DNA of 5,757 bases. It comes from Pseudomonadota bacterium. GTDB taxonomy: Bacteria; Pseudomonadota; Alphaproteobacteria; Sphingomonadales; Sphingomonadaceae. Below, in pieces: positions 1 to 5,757 of the stretch; position 1 is the first letter of the stretch; each line of letters begins with the position of its first letter. The position numbers and the translations under genes were made by a program. The notes below the pieces were generated by a model. The model saw nothing but the letters and a program-made list of their open reading frames with translations, made no database searches and was not told the origin of the DNA. Location: positions 1 through 5,757 of the forward strand of contig JAEWJQ010000236.1 of the NCBI GenBank assembly GCA_023386515.1. The letters run 5' to 3'.

Positions 1-250
1 TCGAGGAGACCATGATCAGCGGCCGTGGGCTGCCCACCATGATATGGGCGAGACAGGTGATGCCGTCCATTTCCGGCATGTTGACGTCGAGCGTCACGAC
101 ATGCGGGTCGAAGGATTCGACCATCGCCAGCGCCTCCGCACCGTTACGCGCGGCCTGCACCACCATATCGTTTTGACGTTCGAGCAGCTGGACGAGATGG
201 CGCCGCATCAGCGCCGAATCGTCGACCACCAGGACACGGATCACCGGCAT
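1..250 (-). CDS. cheB: Chemotaxis response regulator / protein-glutamate methylesterase CheB, N-terminal part (cut by window edge)
   Basis: Only the first 83 residues are present. They form a receiver domain: acidic pair D10-D11 after strand 1 (VLVVDDSALMRR), phospho-acceptor D55 in TLDVNMPEMDG, and S82 at the conserved Thr/Ser position in LIMVSS. The DDSALMRR opening, the VxMPxMDG block and the (P)LIMVSS strand are typical of CheB rather than single-domain CheY. In the family, phosphorylation of the Asp activates a C-terminal methylesterase that removes methyl groups from receptor glutamates; that domain would lie beyond the left edge. The ATG at 250 follows GAGG (262-259) with 8-base spacing, and this site overlaps the stop codon of the CheW gene, so translational coupling is likely. 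It is the third gene of the operon and would act on the receptor encoded two genes upstream. A CheY-type or other receiver protein cannot be fully excluded without the C-terminus. Confidence 0.85.
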   Translation of the reverse strand, partial: MPVIRVLVVDDSALMRRHLVQLLERQNDMVVQAARNGAEALAMVESFDPHVVTLDVNMPEMDGITCLAHIMVGSPRPLIMVSS

Positions 251-258
251 CGCCCGCG

Positions 259-262
259 CCTC
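259..262 (-). promoter_or_regulatory. Ribosome binding site of cheB overlapping the upstream stop codon
   Basis: GAGG on the minus strand shares two bases with the TGA stop (263-261) of the triple-CheW gene and sits 8 bases before the cheB ATG. It supports the ATG at 250 and suggests coupled translation of the two genes. Confidence 0.6.
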
Positions 263-1841
263 ACGCCGCCAGCCGCTCGTCGATCGCCGCCAGCGCGGCC
301 TCTTCGCCCGCATCGATCAGGCAGCCGACATCGAGCAGCTGGATCAAGCGCTTCTGCTCGGGCAGATTGGCGACCCGCTGCACCACCTTGCCGCGCTCGC
401 CCGCCAATTCGGGCGCGGGCGAGATGGCGGCGTCGGCGATGCGCCGCACTTCCGACACGCTGTCGACGATGAAGCCGGTGTCGCGACCGTCGATCGTGAA
501 CACCATGATCCGCTGCCGATCGGACCGCTCGACATCGTCTAGCCCGAAGCGGCGGCGCTGGTCGATCACCGGCAACACCGTGCCGCGCAGATTGATCACG
601 CCCTCGACGAAATCGGGGGTGCGCGGCACGCGGGTCAGCTGATCGGGAACGCGCACGATTTCCCGCACGGTCTCGACCGGCACGCCATATTCCTCCTGCA
701 TCAGGCGGAAGATGACGAATTGCGCATCGTCGACGATGTCGTTGACCACGCTTTGCTCCTCCTGTTCGATGCTGATCGCGTCGGCGTTCGCGCCGCGCAG
801 GCGGCGCAATTCGTCGAGGTCGAACAGGCCGCCCGCCTCCAGCACCGAGACGAGCCGCCGCCCGTCCTCCAGCCGGCAGATCGCGCGGATGTCGCCCCGG
901 CCGCCGCGCTGTCCCAGCGAGGCGGGCACCGGCTCGACCAGCGCCCGGTCGACGCGCAGCACCGCCTTGACCATGTCCATCACCACGCCGACAGACAGAC
1001 GCTGACCGTCGCCGCCGATCGATACAACCACCACCTTGTTCGCCTCCGACAGCGCCTGGTCGGCAAGGCCGAACAAGGCGCGCAGCGAGACCAGCGGCAG
1101 GATGCGGCTGCGCAGCGTGGTGACGCCGAGCACATGTCCCGGCGCATTGGGCACCGGCGTGATCGCGTCGGGCAGCTGCACGATCTCCTGCACGTCGCCG
1201 ATCGGGAAGGCATATTCCTGCCCGTCGACCAGAAAGCTGACCAATTGGTCCTCGTCGGTCGTTTCATGATCCGGCTCATCCGGCGCGTGCAAGGCCGGTG
1301 CGCCGGGCATCGCCGCCGCGGTCCGCCGGTCCAGCGCGGCGAAGCTGCGCCCGATCGTTCGCGCGGCGTCGATGATCATCACGATCGTCTTGCCGTCGTC
1401 GTTCTTGATCATGCCGGTCAGCAGATCGGTATCGATCGTCGCCTGCACCTGCGCGACCGGTTCGACGCACTGCGCATCGACGGTCACGACATTCGCCATT
1501 CGGGCGACCATCAACCCGACAGGCTGACCCTGATCGAGCACGACGACGCGGCTGGCGTCGTCCACCATCGCCTCCGGCAGGTTGAACAATCGGCGCAGGT
1601 CGAGCACCGGCAGCACCGTGCCGCGCAGGTTCGACAGTCCGATCAGCTCGGGCGGGCTCAGCGGCATGCGCACCACGTCGGGGACGCGGACGATCTCCTT
1701 CACCTCCGCCAGCGGCACGGCGAACATCTCGCCGGCGCTGTGGAAGATGACGAACTGCCGCGTCGTGTCGGTATCGCCCGGATCGGGGCGGCCGTCCGCC
1801 GATCCCGTCGCGGCATCCGACGGGTCTATCTTGTCAGCCAT
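261..1841 (-). CDS. Chemotaxis adaptor with three tandem CheW domains
   Basis: The protein has 526 residues, against about 150-170 for a usual CheW. After an acidic, probably disordered N-terminus (1-26), CheW domains lie at about 27-172, 197-348 and 371-515, joined by short acidic linkers. Each repeats the CheW core: a QFVIF-like first strand, an xxEIVxxP segment (E49, E219, E394) and an NLRG-type motif. The motif is NLRGTVLPVLDLR in domain 1 (71-83) and NLRGTVLPVIDQR in domain 3 (417-429), but decays to TLRSRILPLVSLR in domain 2 (242-254). CheW domains link MCP hairpin tips to the CheA kinase. There is no receiver domain, so it is not CheV, and no HPt or kinase domain, so it is not CheA. 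ATG 1841 is chosen because AAAGGA (1854-1849) precedes it by 7 bases and the residues upstream in the same open frame (up to 2081) are Arg/Pro-rich shadow of the receptor gene. It lies 28 bases after the receptor gene and is presumably co-transcribed. Confidence 0.93.
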   Translation of the reverse strand: MADKIDPSDAATGSADGRPDPGDTDTTRQFVIFHSAGEMFAVPLAEVKEIVRVPDVVRMPLSPPELIGLSNLRGTVLPVLDLRRLFNLPEAMVDDASRVVVLDQGQPVGLMVARMANVVTVDAQCVEPVAQVQATIDTDLLTGMIKNDDGKTIVMIIDAARTIGRSFAALDRRTAAAMPGAPALHAPDEPDHETTDEDQLVSFLVDGQEYAFPIGDVQEIVQLPDAITPVPNAPGHVLGVTTLRSRILPLVSLRALFGLADQALSEANKVVVVSIGGDGQRLSVGVVMDMVKAVLRVDRALVEPVPASLGQRGGRGDIRAICRLEDGRRLVSVLEAGGLFDLDELRRLRGANADAISIEQEEQSVVNDIVDDAQFVIFRLMQEEYGVPVETVREIVRVPDQLTRVPRTPDFVEGVINLRGTVLPVIDQRRRFGLDDVERSDRQRIMVFTIDGRDTGFIVDSVSEVRRIADAAISPAPELAGERGKVVQRVANLPEQKRLIQLLDVGCLIDAGEEAALAAIDERLAA

Positions 1842-1848
1842 ACGGGCA

Positions 1849-1854
1849 TCCTTT
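1849..1854 (-). promoter_or_regulatory. Ribosome binding site of the triple-CheW gene
   Basis: AAAGGA on the minus strand, 7 bases before ATG 1841. This site decides the start: the frame stays open to 2081, but only this ATG has a ribosome site and begins CheW-like sequence. Confidence 0.7.
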
Positions 1855-1869
1855 GCGCGGGAAGGAAGG

Positions 1870-3795
1870 TCAGGCGGCCTGCAGCTCGTCGGCGAGCGAG
1901 GCGATCTCCTCGACCGCCGCGGCAAGCTGTTCGGCGCCCTGCGCCTGTTCGCGCGCGGCGGTGCTCGCCTCGTTGGACGTCCGCGATGCCTGTTGCGCGG
2001 CGGTCGACACCTGCTCGACCGCGATCTGCGTCTCGCGCAACAGCACGCCGATCTGCTCCGCCGCGGTGGAGATGGCGGCATTGCCGTCGACCACCTCGGC
2101 GACGTCGCGCGCGATCTGCTCGAGACCGGTGGCGATCGCGCGGTTCTTCTCGACCTCGCTGCTCGCCGCGTCGGCGATCTCCTGCAGGTCGGTGCGCACC
2201 CGCGCGATCGTGTCCTGAATCTCCTTCACCGTATCCTTGATCCGGTCCGCATTCTCCGCGGAGTCGCGCGCGAGATTGCGGATGTCGGTCGACACCACCG
2301 CGAAACCCTTGCCGAATTCGCCGGCGCGGGCCGCCTCGACCGAGCCGCTGACCGCGAGCATGTTGGTCTGGATCGACACCGTGGTGATCGCGTCGACGAT
2401 CTTGTCGATGCGGCGGCTGACCTGCTCCAGCGCCGCGATTTGGTCGCGGCTGGCGCGACCGGCGTCGACCGACTGCGCGACCCCACCCATCATCGCATCG
2501 AGCAGCGTCTTGTTTTCGTCGAGCAGCCCGGCGATCGCCTTGCCCTTGTCGACCGCCACGCTCGCCAGGCCGGCGGCGCGCTGCGCATTGCCCTCGATCT
2601 GCTCGATCGCCGCCGCCGACTGCTGCGTCGCCGCCGCGGCCTGCTGCGCACCGCGGTTGATCTGTTCCAGCGCGGTCGAAATCTGTGTCGAGGCGCGGGT
2701 GATCTCCTCCACGGCGCTCGACAGTTCCTCGGCGGCGGATGCCACCTCTTCCGCGCTCTTGCCGATGTTGGTGCTGTTCTTCAGCTCCTCGGCCAGTTCG
2801 GACAGTTCCTGCGACGCCTGCTCGCTCTGCTGCAGCGCCGCCGCCTGCTGCTCGATCGTCGTGCTCGTTTCCTGACAGGCGGCGCCCTGTTCTTCCGCCG
2901 CCGTCGCGATCACCTCGGCGCCCTTCAGCGCCTCGTTGGCCGCTTGCGTCGCGACCTCCGCCCCACTGGCGATCTCTTCGCAGCCGCGGATGATGTCGAG
3001 CATGTCGACGCGGATCTGCTCCAGCTGGGCCGTGACCGTATTGCCCTTTTCCACCTCGCCGCGCGCGGTGGCGGCGGACTTGTCGATGCCTTCGGCGACG
3101 AGCCGCACGTCCTGCTGCACCTGCGCGATCAGTTCCTGGATGTCGCGCGCCGACTTCTCGCTCGTCTCGGCCAGCGTGCGCACCTCGTCGGCGACGACCG
3201 CGAAACCCTTGCCGTGCTGGCCGGCGCGTGCCGCCTCGATCGCCGCATTGAGCGCGAGGAGATTGGTCTGGTCGGCGATCCGGGCGACGGCCTTCACCAC
3301 CTCGCTGATGCCGGTCGCCTGCCGGTCGAGCTCCTCGACCATCTTGACCGAGCTTTCCTGGCGCTCGGACGCGCGTGCGATCGCGGCGATCGAGGCGGCG
3401 ACGTTGCCGCTGGTCCCGCCGACCAGATCGGACAGCGCCTGGGTGAGCTTGAGCGAGGCGTCGGCGCGCTGCTTGGCGTCGTTGAGCAGACCTTCGGCTT
3501 GCGAGATCGACTTCATCGTCTGCTGCGCCGCCCCCGACGCCTGTTCCGCCCCGACGCTGCTCTGGTCGGACGCGCGGCGCAATTCCTCCGCCGCCGATGC
3601 CGCTTCGGTGATGCCGCTGGCGAGCTGGGTGGTTGCCGAGGCGATCCGCTCCGCCGCCTTCTGCTGGCGCGCGAAGGTGCGGGCCTTGCGCTTCTCCGCC
3701 TCTGCCGCGACGCGGATGCTGCGCGATCCGGCCAGCGACGCCGATTCGTCGTTATTTTGTGTATTCTTAATCGTCGTACGCTTAGCCAGTGCCAC
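1870..3795 (-). CDS. Soluble methyl-accepting chemotaxis receptor with two tandem signalling hairpins (DosM-like)
   Basis: The protein has 641 residues, almost all helical heptad sequence rich in Ala, Glu and Gln. No hydrophobic segment could span a membrane, and no PAS, globin, HAMP or other sensor domain is recognisable, so it is cytoplasmic. A basic N-terminal tail (1-50) is followed by a first MCP hairpin with a canonical tip, [17 protein letters not shown] (176-192) and [15 protein letters not shown] (195-209). A second hairpin has tip [17 protein letters not shown] (476-492) and [15 protein letters not shown] (495-509). MCP tips bind CheA and CheW; two tips are the mark of double-signalling receptors such as Vibrio cholerae DosM. 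Sites fitting the methylation consensus include E301/E302, E315/Q316, E356/E357 and Q391/Q392. There is no C-terminal CheR-binding pentapeptide. The start is GTG, the only start codon after the in-frame stop at 3822, behind AGGGGGG with 6-base spacing. It is first in the operon with the triple-CheW and cheB genes. The input signal is unknown. Confidence 0.93.
1873..2742 (-). repeat. Second MCP signalling unit (internal duplication, copy 2)
   Basis: This encodes residues 352-641 of the receptor. From its tip to about residue 623 it aligns with copy 1 at a constant 300-residue offset without gaps: E187/E487, GKGFAVV 195/495, EVEK 247/547, LEQI 258/558, TAA-(EE/QQ) 298/598. The rising arm is two heptads (14 residues) longer than in copy 1 if the ASAAEEL motifs (66-72 and 352-358) are equivalent. 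Confidence 0.8.
2821..3600 (-). repeat. First MCP signalling unit (internal duplication, copy 1)
   Basis: This encodes residues 66-325 of the receptor, with the canonical tip at 176-209. It is homologous to copy 2. At DNA level the two copies share the 18-base stretch ACCGCGAAACCCTTGCCG (plus strand) at 3197-3214 and 2297-2314, exactly 900 bases apart. Confidence 0.8.
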
Positions 3796-3801
3796 CTCTA
3801 A

Positions 3802-3808
3802 CCCCCCT
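3802..3808 (-). promoter_or_regulatory. Ribosome binding site supporting the GTG start of the receptor gene
   Basis: AGGGGGG on the minus strand, 6 bases before GTG 3795. No ATG occurs in frame between the upstream stop (3822-3820) and the coiled-coil sequence, so this G-rich site supports the GTG start. Confidence 0.5.
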
Positions 3809-3818
3809 GATTCAATTG

Positions 3819-3824
3819 ATTATG
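3819..3824 (-). promoter_or_regulatory. Possible -10 element of the receptor operon promoter
   Basis: CATAAT (5 of 6 matches to TATAAT) lies on the minus strand in the only AT-rich stretch before the operon, 23 bases ahead of GTG 3795. No good -35 hexamer sits 16-18 bases upstream (TTAAAC at 18 matches in 3 of 6 positions). A TAAA box also occurs 16 bases before CGACATAA, a poor match to flagellar sigma-28 promoters. The sigma factor is undecided. Confidence 0.3.
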
Positions 3825-3859
3825 TCGAATATGGACCTAAGGGTTTAAAGATCGCTTAA

Positions 3860-3897
3860 GGGATGGCGGACTCCCGCGTGGCTGACGGCAATCAGCC
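3860..3897 (-). other. Two small hairpins at the 3' end of the ArsR-type gene
   Basis: GGCTGA (3880-3885) and TCAGCC (3892-3897) form a perfect 6-base stem with a 6-base loop that includes the regulator's stop codon. Immediately after it in the minus-strand direction, GGGA and TCCC (3860-3863 and 3872-3875) can form a weaker 4-base stem. No T-run follows, so this is not a standard intrinsic terminator. It may weakly attenuate read-through from the regulator gene into the receptor operon, or protect the transcript end. Confidence 0.35.
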
Positions 3898-4263
3898 TTG
3901 GCCGGGTTTCTCGGCTGCGGCGGCGAAGCTGTCGTTGCTCAAGTCGGTCGCATAGGCGTTGATGATCCCGGGCAGCAGGCCGGGGAAGCGTGCCTCCACC
4001 TCGTCCCAGCGCGGCGCGTTGCGCACTTCCACGCCATGGCGCTCGCTGCGGATCAGGCCCGCATCGCGCAGGATCTTGATATGGTTCGACAGCGACGATT
4101 TGGGGATCACCCGATCGCCGACGCACGCCACCGCCGAACAGGCGTCGACGCACCCCGCCTTCATGATCGTCGCGAAGATCGCGGCGCGCGCCGGATCGGA
4201 CAGCGCGTGCAGGATCGCGTCCGGCCGGATGTCTTCGATCGCCGGGTGGATCAGGGGTCTCAT
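3892..4263 (-). CDS. ArsR-family (winged helix-turn-helix) transcriptional regulator
   Basis: The protein has 123 residues, the usual length for ArsR-type repressors. Residues 16-34 (ILHALSDPARAAIFATIM) match the family's first helices, and KSSLSNHIKILRDAGLIRSERHG (55-77) is the HTH recognition region leading into the wing. Such proteins bind DNA as dimers and leave their operator when a ligand or modification changes the fold. The classic arsenic/metal motif ELCVCDL is absent. Instead C38, C42 and C47 form a CxxxCxxxxC cluster just before the recognition region, which could sense thiol-reactive compounds or bind metal; that is inference. ATG 4263 is the only start codon in frame after the stop at 4296, but it has no clear ribosome site. 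The gene is divergent from the reductase genes, with a palindrome between them, so it probably regulates them and itself. Confidence 0.9.
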   Translation of the reverse strand: MRPLIHPAIEDIRPDAILHALSDPARAAIFATIMKAGCVDACSAVACVGDRVIPKSSLSNHIKILRDAGLIRSERHGVEVRNAPRWDEVEARFPGLLPGIINAYATDLSNDSFAAAAEKPGQG

Positions 4264-4298
4264 GTTTTTTGCATCTGGGGTCTTGATCCCGCCTCAAT

Positions 4299-4319
4299 TA
4301 GTTCCAGATTCCCGAACTA
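4299..4319. promoter_or_regulatory. Probable operator: TAGTTC-N9-GAACTA inverted repeat
   Basis: A perfect 6-base inverted repeat (4299-4304 and 4314-4319) with 9-base spacing sits in the 108-base divergent region, 35 bases from the regulator ATG and 52 from the reductase ATG. The arm spacing puts both halves on one DNA face about one and a half turns apart, centre to centre, as suits a dimeric winged-helix repressor. It is the most symmetrical element in the spacer, so it is the best candidate for the ArsR-type regulator's binding site controlling both directions. No convincing -35/-10 pair was found around it. Confidence 0.6.
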
Positions 4320-4357
4320 TGGGATTAACGGTTGCCATGTTGGTGCCGGCCCATAGC

Positions 4358-4363
4358 AGAAGG
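4358..4363 (+). promoter_or_regulatory. Ribosome binding site of the short-chain dehydrogenase gene
   Basis: AGAAGG, 8 bases before ATG 4372. It supports this start, which also gives the standard distance of a classical SDR N-terminus to its glycine motif. Confidence 0.65.
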
Positions 4364-4371
4364 TTCAGGTC

Positions 4372-5118
4372 ATGGCGAAACTTAGCGGCAAGGTGGCGAT
4401 CGTCACGGGGGCATCGAAGGGCATCGGCGCGGGAATCGCCAAGGCGCTGGCCGCGGAGGGCGCGGCGGTGGTCGTCAATTACACATCCAGCCAGGCGGAC
4501 GCCGACACGGTCGTCACCGGTATCACCGCCGCCGGCGGACAGGCGATTACGGTGCGGGGCGACGTGACCAAGGCGGACGACGCGCGAGCATTGGTGACGG
4601 CGGCGGTAGAGCGGTTCGGACGGCTCGACGTGCTGGTCAACAATTCCGGCATCTACGAATTCGCGCCGATCGAAGAGGTGACGGAGGAGCATTACCGGCG
4701 TCAGTTCGACGTCAACGTGCTCGGTACGCTGCTCGTCACCCAGGCGGCGTCACCGCACCTCCAGCCCGGAGCGAGCATCATCAACGTCTCGTCCGCGATC
4801 ACGCACGTGCATACGCCCGGCGCAGCGGTCTACGCCGGCACGAAAGGCGCGGTGAACGCGATCACCGACGTGCTCGCCAACGAACTCGCGCCGCGCCAGA
4901 TCCGGGTCAATGCGGTCAGCCCCGGCTTCGTCGTCACCGAGGGGACGCACAGCGCGGGCATCGTCCAGTCGGATATGGCTGCCGGCATCGTCGCGCAGAC
5001 GCCGCTCGGCCGCGCCGGCCAGCCGGAAGACATTGCCGGCGTCGTCGCCTTCCTCGCCTCCGATGCGGCGGGCTGGCTGACCGGCGAGAATATCACCGCG
5101 AGCGGCGGCATCCGCTGA
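4372..5118 (+). CDS. Short-chain dehydrogenase/reductase (classical SDR family oxidoreductase)
   Basis: The protein has 248 residues, normal for classical SDRs, which move hydride between NAD(P) and a hydroxyl or carbonyl group. It has the glycine motif TGASKGIG (12-19), D64 after strand 3, NNSG (90-93, replacing the usual NNAG), N115, and the catalytic S141, Y154 and K158 with the standard 13-residue Ser-Tyr spacing. PGFV (around 170-190) and the C-terminal LTGENITASGGIR are also typical. K16 in the glycine loop and N36 rather than Asp at the end of strand 2 favour NADP(H). It resembles the SDRs often labelled glucose 1-dehydrogenase or 3-oxoacyl-ACP reductase, but the substrate cannot be read from sequence; a fatty-acid FabG role is unlikely in this setting. 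It is divergent from the ArsR-type regulator and 54 bases ahead of an aldo/keto reductase, probably one transcript. Confidence 0.93.
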   Translation: MAKLSGKVAIVTGASKGIGAGIAKALAAEGAAVVVNYTSSQADADTVVTGITAAGGQAITVRGDVTKADDARALVTAAVERFGRLDVLVNNSGIYEFAPIEEVTEEHYRRQFDVNVLGTLLVTQAASPHLQPGASIINVSSAITHVHTPGAAVYAGTKGAVNAITDVLANELAPRQIRVNAVSPGFVVTEGTHSAGIVQSDMAAGIVAQTPLGRAGQPEDIAGVVAFLASDAAGWLTGENITASGGIR

Positions 5119-5172
5119 TCCACGCGTGCCGCCGGGATGGGCCGATCGGCGCCGCGACGCGTTGTCGAGGGC

Positions 5173-5757
5173 ATGCAGACGATCCGCTTCCCCGACGGCA
5201 CCACCATTCCCGCACTCGGCCAGGGCAGCTGGATGATGGCCGAGGACCCCGCGCGCCGCGGCGATGAGATTGCCGCGCTGCGCGAGGGTGTCGCACTCGG
5301 CATGACGCTGATCGACACGGCCGAAATGTACGCTGACGGCGAGTCCGAACGGCTGGTCGGAGAGGCGATCCACGGCCTGCGCGACGAAGTCTTCCTCGTC
5401 AGCAAGGCCTATCCACAGAATGCGTCGCGCGATCGCCTGCCCCGCGCCTGCGAGGCTAGCCTGGCCCGGCTCGGCACGGACCACATCGACCTGTACCTGC
5501 TGCACTGGCGCGGGCGCGTACCGCTGGCCGAGACGGTGGAGGCCATGGAGCGGCTGGTCGCGGCCGGCAAGATCCGCCGCTGGGGCGTCAGCAATCTCGA
5601 CACGGACGACATGGCCGAACTGATGGCTGCCGGCGGCAGCGGCTGCCAGACCGACCAGATCCTCTACAATCTTACCCGCCGCGGACCCGAGCATGACCTG
5701 ATCCCGTGGCTGACGCAGCGACACATCCCGGTCATGGCCTACAGCCCCGTCGAGCAG
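5173..5757 (+). CDS. Aldo/keto reductase, N-terminal part (cut by window edge)
   Basis: The frame is open from ATG 5173 to the right edge (195 residues, no stop), about 70% of the usual 270-280 residues. It starts [18 protein letters not shown], the normal first strand of this family, and carries the AKR catalytic tetrad: D48 and Y53 ([14 protein letters not shown]), K78 (FLVSKAYP) and H111 (DLYLLHW). Further family blocks are [10 protein letters not shown] (132-141) and the cofactor-side PVMAYSP near the edge. Members fold as an (alpha/beta)8 barrel and reduce aldehydes or ketones with NADPH. ATG 5137 is in frame and would add 12 residues ([12 protein letters not shown]), but these do not look like the family. 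GAGGG (5167-5171) before ATG 5173 is very close, so the exact start is less certain than the identity. It follows the SDR gene by 54 bases on the same strand, without a terminator. Confidence 0.9.

Follow-up and report, generated by a model that had tools for sequence, protein, structure and literature searches.

Chemosensory systems of the F9 class, a name given by Wuichet and Zhulin as cited in PMC7534058, have as their signature the receptor DosM together with a triple CheW protein (PMC9321776). The F9 system of Vibrio cholerae builds plates in the cytoplasm that have two CheA/CheW layers; cryo-tomography led to the description of DosM (VC1403) as an extended rod that carries one signalling domain at either end (PMC7534058). 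The cytoplasmic baseplates lie 35 nm apart (PMC3964821), and the role of the membrane-free F9 arrays has been described as unclear (PMC7534058). A survey of 2781 species found full F9 clusters in 64 and partial ones in 8, alphaproteobacteria among them, and 98% of the DosM homologs were without a sensor domain (PMC9321776). Here, we analyzed a 5,757-nucleotide stretch of DNA, referred to as the window, from a bacterium placed in the Sphingomonadaceae (GenBank assembly GCA_023386515.1, contig JAEWJQ010000236.1, positions 1 to 5,757 of the forward strand). It encodes a soluble receptor with two signalling hairpins of the methyl-accepting chemotaxis protein (MCP) type, which is almost certainly a DosM-type receptor of an F9-class operon.

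A Two-Hairpin Receptor beside a Triple CheW Protein

The Pfam search of the receptor gave MCPsignal (PF00015) in two stretches, with an E value of 2.8e-58, and beyond it no family at E 0.001. The highest 19-residue Kyte-Doolittle mean was 1.15, which speaks against a membrane segment. The receptor thus differs from an ordinary transmembrane MCP, which has a membrane segment and one signalling hairpin. The letters of the two tips begin at residues 176 and 476, and each tip contains an EAARAG motif, at residues 187 and 487. Hairpins 1 and 2 are 31% identical at an offset of 300 residues and 6.5–13% identical at the other offsets from 296 to 304. An earlier, sequence-only reading of the window had placed two MCP tips, at residues 176-209 and 476-509, in one chain with neither sensor domain nor membrane segment, and it had proposed the search for two MCPsignal matches as a check; all of this was borne out. 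Its claim of two complete hairpins holds in that both are present, but the second tip is a conserved variant and not a second canonical tip. Overall, that reading is partly supported, and its parallel with DosM is upheld by the two hairpins and the adjoining triple CheW.

The operon was assigned to the F9 class because a DosM-type receptor with a triple CheW is the published signature. The signalling domains of the receptor stand in tandem, neither a sensor domain nor a membrane segment accompanies them, and the neighbouring coupling protein (CheW3) has three PF01584 stretches. The window shows the start of cheB alone; both cheB and cheR are present in Sphingomonas sp. 8AM, and cheA and cheY, which lie beyond the window, are present in Sphingomonas sp. 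8AM and Thiorhodospira. The gene order in these two relatives is dosM, cheW3, cheB, a HEAT-repeat protein gene, cheR, cheY and cheA, as determined with Pfam, the dosM frames and the 8AM cheW3 being taken from locus matches. Systems with DosM and CheW3 are already known, having been published in V. cholerae and reported in alphaproteobacteria.

Fixed Tip Spacing and a Predicted Central Hinge

Two sets of relatives were compared. Public relatives comprised 201 best hits, at most 120 per search, from 3271 and 2620 hits. A scan for the tip-2 region in one genome per species (84,980 species) gave 354 confirmed stretches, of which the best 80 were taken as loci. Every one of the 201 listed public relatives had its tips exactly 300 residues apart, as measured by the tip letters in 200 of them and by the EAARAG motifs in one (P0193). 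In a set of 90 loci, where L083 and L090 repeat L046 and L003, both tips lay in one open frame in 86, with a spacing of 300 in 85 and of 224 in L008; in the other four, tip 1 was not found in the receptor frame. The L008 gene (L008:8831-10585, Sphingomonas sp. RIT328) is without 76 residues around the hinge, through either a natural deletion or an assembly error. In a remote relative on a Novosphingobium plasmid, the spacing is 299. The tip-1 letters were identical in 119 of the 120 proteins in which both tips were found (121 examined, including that of the window). Tip 2 is of one fixed variant type with few variants across the relatives; the copy in the window has S for N.

Midway between the tips, the receptor appears to be hinged. 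The AlphaFold monomer, computed for one chain with 100 sequences, had a mean predicted local distance difference test score (pLDDT) of 89.3 and a predicted template modelling score (pTM) of 0.62. It shows helices at residues 24-340 and 344-640 with a break at 341-343; the tip turns do not show in the DSSP line. By analogy with E. coli Tsr, the turns are presumably at residues 191-193 and 491-493, and their midpoint then falls inside the break. The predicted three-residue break accordingly sits midway between the tips in the model. The heptad phase holds steady along either hairpin and shifts by roughly one residue over residues 330-350. Close to the hinge, N340, S341, K346, S347, E349 and V351 are each kept by 91 to 100 of the 100 sequences. 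The spacing of exactly 300 residues, the combination of a canonical tip 1 with a fixed-variant tip 2 and the predicted central hinge are new findings.

Coevolution and Predicted Packing of the Two Hairpins

In the AlphaFold model, hairpins 1 and 2 seem to lie alongside each other, their tips at the same end. The PDB entry 8d9p, which we take to be a designed single-chain four-helix bundle, aligns over model residues 142-544 (195 of 195 residues, root mean square deviation 2.4). This alignment is known from its first and last aligned residues, the model coordinates being unseen. As unrelated helical bundles score level with receptors in the PDB comparison, it was used for the side-by-side arrangement and the receptor rows alone.

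Because a single-chain prediction could be forced into side-by-side packing, coevolution between the hairpins was tested. The set contained 247 non-redundant sequences (284 before thinning) with an effective number (Neff) of 87, and columns 35-641 with less than 10% gaps were used. Pairs at equal height in opposite hairpins (i+j=684) were scored by mutual information (MI) and direct coupling analysis (DCA), corrected for column variability and compared with 108 shifted diagonals. For the N arm of hairpin 1 with the C arm of hairpin 2 (N1-C2), none of the 108 shifts scored as high as the equal-height diagonal, by MI and DCA alike. For C1-N2, one shift did so by MI and 22 by DCA. The within-hairpin controls gave 0 (MI) and 12 (DCA) for N1-C1 and 0 and 30 for N2-C2. 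Parallel pairs gave 0 (MI) and 34 (DCA) for N1-N2 and 6 and 7 for C1-C2. The null consisted of 184 alignments generated by simulation along the tree, using site-specific frequencies but no coupling. None of them attained the combined equal-height score of 0.187 (null mean 0.008, standard deviation 0.038), and none attained the within-hairpin control score of 0.158. Among the top 400 pairs, 12 (MI) and 15 (DCA) lay on the equal-height diagonal versus 1–8 and 1–9 on 16 shifted diagonals.

These data indicate that hairpins 1 and 2 most likely touch along their length. Their pairing, whether as antiparallel rods or as folded single chains, is in our judgement probable. The equal-height coevolution of the two hairpins and their side-by-side packing in AlphaFold have a place among the new findings.

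Proposed Array and Alternative Arrangements

The receptor may well scaffold a membrane-free, two-layered CheA/CheW3 array with hairpins 1 and 2 predicted to pair, a proposal that we regard as falling just short of an even call. Given pairing, the chances of an antiparallel rod over a folded single chain are even or a little better; the rod is preferred because it keeps the form described for V. cholerae, and the folded form is nearly as likely. In such a rod, two chains would lie antiparallel, hairpin 1 of one against hairpin 2 of the other. Either end would carry the same tip-1/tip-2 pair, inserting into identical CheA/CheW3 baseplates, and the hinge at 341-343 would mark the mid-plane, where both the N termini and the C termini would meet. 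The arms would be adjusted through methylation under the control of CheR and CheB. As the receptor chain has no sensor domain, the signal input would come from other cytoplasmic receptors of the same lattice.

Several observations weigh against this proposal. A helix break of three residues is no less compatible with the chain turning back on itself than with a rod. At a helix rise of 0.15 nm per residue, a straight rod of 300 residues would measure about 45 nm. This is more than the 35 nm between the V. cholerae baseplates (PMC3964821). AlphaFold, run on one chain (pTM 0.62), could satisfy between-chain contacts inside that chain. The coevolution signal comes from a Neff of 87 for about 600 columns, and by DCA neither the C1-N2 diagonal (22/108) nor the controls (12/108 and 30/108) are outstanding. 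Taken singly, the simulation is weak for the C1-C2 parallel pairs (78 of 184 as high) and the N2-C2 control (50 of 184), and the N1-C2 raw score was matched in 11 of 184 simulations, though its shift score was matched in none. A six-class alphabet weakens the signal, to 2/108 for N1-C2, 10/108 for C1-N2 and 48/108 for the N2-C2 control. Finally, the array is predicted here from genes, none having been observed.

The alternative that survives best is a folded single-chain dimer, which we consider possible, if doubtful. The chain would turn back at 341-343 so that its hairpins pack within one molecule acting as an ordinary receptor dimer, and the two layers would stand tail to tail. The AlphaFold model seems to be of such a form, the predicted break lies midway and coincides with the heptad phase slip, and the arms are equal in length, so both tips would end level. 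The equal-height coevolution fits this form equally well. Single-chain AlphaFold is, however, biased to that answer, and the cryo-tomographic description of V. cholerae DosM is of an extended rod (PMC7534058). Array thickness was set aside as a discriminator, as by residue counts the rod and the folded form give nearly equal total thickness.

In a parallel rod, each baseplate would receive like tips, a tip-1 pair on one side and a tip-2 pair on the other, so that the array would have two chemically different faces. This would agree with the described rod having one signalling domain per end and with the conserved difference between the tips. Yet its hairpins would run away from each other, with the hinge as their sole meeting point, so that it predicts no contact between hairpins 1 and 2 elsewhere; the equal-height coevolution along the arms therefore speaks against it, and we judge it unlikely. 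Still less probable is that the group has no cytoplasmic sandwich at all, the receptor being a minor member of polar membrane arrays or free of arrays. The Sphingomonas genomes have three to four CheA matches each (10/10 genomes) and 17–25 MCP matches (4/4), so other arrays probably exist in Sphingomonas, and the inference of the array from genes would also suit this explanation. Against it stand the lack of a membrane segment and the dedicated operon encoding a CheW3 of its own, to which relatives add CheB, CheR, CheY and CheA. Fusion of genes or faulty assembly as the origin of the two-tip chain is refuted and has next to no probability left, because two tips at a separation of 300 residues recur in every one of the 201 listed public relatives and in 85 of the 86 scorable loci.

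A HEAT-Repeat Protein Sharing the N-Terminal Tag of the Receptor

A HEAT-repeat protein was matched in 74 of the 80 loci; of the other six, four end before its position and two (L040 and L047) gave no match. Its gene lies between cheB and cheR, as verified with Pfam at L003:13360-13980 and L046:13632-14261, and most other loci are alike. The N terminus of the receptor, MALAKR, follows a pattern M-x-L-x-[KR] that recurs in this protein. By the gene calls of the databases themselves, the tag was present in 158 of 201 listed public DosM proteins and in 100 of 120 listed public HEAT proteins (the best 120 of 637). In the genes of the loci, one rule was applied throughout, under which an in-frame start counted if it lay no more than 45 residues before or 30 residues after the expected one; the tag served as the reference start for DosM, and the CheR reference was an in-frame piece cut by hand. 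It gave 65/74 for DosM and 53/73 for the HEAT protein, and 0/77 for CheW3, 1/77 for CheB, 1/75 for CheR, 0/78 for CheY and 9/73 for CheA. The tag is not universal, being missed in 9 of 74 DosM and 20 of 73 HEAT genes; DosM of L055, L056 and L059 starts with MPLIAA. The occurrence of a HEAT-repeat protein in 74 of 80 relatives' loci, with an N-terminal tag common to the receptor, is new. The protein was not named as an F9 component in the literature matches listed for HEAT repeat with chemotaxis or F9, as judged by titles and abstract openings, and the main texts of PMC7534058 and PMC9321776 have zero mentions of HEAT.

In the receptor model, residues 1-23, which include the tag, have a pLDDT below 50. 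The HEAT protein of Sphingomonas phyllosphaerae was modelled with a mean pLDDT of 92, its first 20 residues averaging about 52. The tail that bears the tag is thus probably disordered in both proteins, as far as the models tell. The idea that the tag docks on the HEAT protein itself was considered and is unsupported, the first 20 residues of the S. phyllosphaerae model not being confidently placed. A sole role as a code pairing DosM with the HEAT protein was rejected, since operons without a HEAT gene keep the tag: MALVKK in L091 (Novosphingobium), MALMKT in L047 and MALVKT in L092 (Agrobacterium), the last lying just upstream of the annotated DosM start. For the same reason, the partner of the tag is probably a third component. 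A codon effect was discarded because synonymous codons vary at residues 2-6; selection therefore seems to act on the peptide.

Distribution of Relatives and Neighbouring Genes

The best 80 loci range from Sphingomonas, Methylobacterium and other alphaproteobacteria through to gamma-, beta- and deltaproteobacterial lineages. Among the matches listed, the public protein closest to the receptor shares 83% identity with it and is labelled a Sphingomonas taxi metagenome-assembled genome. CheW3 was matched in 78 of the 80 loci, with a frame of three or more CheW matches in 75, and CheA within the stretch in 75, some stretches ending early. The exact tip-2 DNA motif occurred in 6 of 369 gammaproteobacterial and 4 of 385 alphaproteobacterial genomes (the centre genome counted in each), which are lower bounds because the match is exact; the reversed motif occurred in none. 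The two-tipped receptor type is uncommon, in agreement with the literature. F9 as the sole chemosensory system of its hosts was ruled out, as all 18 genomes searched have three to six CheA matches.

Some loci depart from the common order. In L040 (Magnetospirillum sp. UT-4), a dosM-like frame of 278 codons is directly followed by cheA, and neither CheW3 nor HEAT was matched in the stretch. L091 (Novosphingobium resinovorum plasmid pHR1a) and L092 (an Agrobacterium vitis plasmid) have F9 operons without a HEAT gene, with cheX and PAS protein genes downstream; both plasmids were typed as conjugative. L093, on a plasmid of Azospirillum brasilense, has an F9 operon that includes a HEAT gene and cheA; a response regulator and a CheC come before it. 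Two further Che operons of A. brasilense, Che2 and Che3, have been described as having no arrays assignable to them by tomography (PMC6759762).

In the window, the receptor gene, cheW3 and the first 83 codons of cheB follow one another on the minus strand, separated by 28 and 10 bases (Table 1). An ArsR-type regulator gene with a cysteine-rich stretch, CVDACSAVAC, (3892-4263, minus strand) is divergent from a short-chain dehydrogenase gene (4372-5118, plus strand), and an aldo/keto reductase gene comes next; the regulator and dehydrogenase resemble a local regulatory pair. This block stands where L003 and L001 have FliR-MotA, motB and PilZ genes. There, a single frame (L003:4261-5793, also in L001) joins a FliR-type export domain (Pfam 9-231) to MotA (218-308/342-450); motB and a PilZ gene come next, immediately before the F9 operon. 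The joined frame was matched in 2 of the 80 loci.

Table 1. Coordinates of the chemosensory features in the 5,757-nucleotide window.
Feature	Position	Strand	Remarks
dosM-type receptor gene	1870..3795	-	GTG start, 641 aa; two signalling hairpins of MCP type, with neither sensor nor membrane segment
N-terminal tag MALAKR (residues 1-6)	3778..3795	-	On tail predicted to be disordered; M-x-L-x-[KR] conserved in family
Hairpin 1 (residues 44-340)	2776..3666	-	Best MCPsignal stretch 149-301; AlphaFold helix 24-340
Tip 1 (residues 176-209), canonical	3169..3270	-	Letters identical in 119 of 120 proteins
Central hinge, predicted helix break (residues 341-343)	2767..2775	-	DSSP break, heptad slip, conserved residues
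Hairpin 2 (residues 344-640)	1876..2766	-	Pfam MCPsignal, AlphaFold helix 344-640, PDB comparison
Tip 2 (residues 476-509), conserved variant	2269..2370	-	Tip letters in relatives
cheW3, triple-CheW coupling protein, 526 aa	261..1841	-	Three PF01584 stretches (Pfam)
CheW domain 1 of cheW3	1347..1766	-	
CheW domain 2 of cheW3	807..1256	-	
CheW domain 3 of cheW3	300..731	-	
5' part of cheB (receiver domain)	2..250	-	Window ends inside gene; best NCBIfam match CheB, PRK00742

Implications and Comparison with Known Systems

For DosM-type receptors in general, we offer a tentative model, which is rather more likely to fail than to hold in full. Hairpin 1 would always stand with hairpin 2, either in trans in antiparallel rods or in cis in a single-chain dimer. 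All kinase-facing DosM tips would then be fixed tip-1/tip-2 heterodimers and both faces of the sandwich identical. The HEAT protein with its M-x-L-x-K/R tag would be an unnamed F9 component docking beside DosM on a shared mid-plane site. A kinase-facing end made of a tip-1/tip-2 pair, in the rod or the folded form, would explain the conserved difference between the tips. If the hairpins do pair, the picture of DosM as a rod with unlike ends needs redrawing, and each tip would be a built-in heterodimer. The tag common to DosM and the HEAT protein offers a concrete handle on a likely F9 component. The fixed tip spacing with its central hinge, the pairing of hairpins 1 and 2 and the tagged HEAT partner are testable additions to the F9 description.

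The soluble receptor of Thermotoga maritima (PDB 2ch7) and the cytoplasmic domains of E. coli receptors are presumably homodimeric with one hairpin per chain, unlike the receptor of the window. The cytosolic formaldehyde-taxis receptor MtpA of Methylobacterium aquaticum was not taken up as a DosM; PMC10613068 reports only an MCP signalling domain for it. Another HEAT-repeat protein of a chemotaxis gene region is the haloarchaeal HEAT_PBS protein OE2401F, and a haloarchaeal HEAT_PBS protein is required for switching of flagellar rotation (PMC2666748). This likeness concerns the HEAT neighbour in the relatives' operons, not the gene in the window, and any relation to DosM or F9 would be hypothetical. 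With the F9 class, the locus shares DosM and CheW3 with cheB adjoining, and checked relatives add cheR, cheY and cheA (PMC9321776). The HEAT-repeat gene found here in most loci is an addition to what the main texts of PMC7534058 and PMC9321776 mention. Like DosM (VC1403) of V. cholerae, which belongs to the F9 class and to cluster I, the receptor is soluble, has two signalling domains and is encoded alongside a triple CheW (PMC7534058). Compared by description only, it differs from V. cholerae DosM in its likely sphingomonad host and in the pairing proposed for hairpin 1 with hairpin 2.
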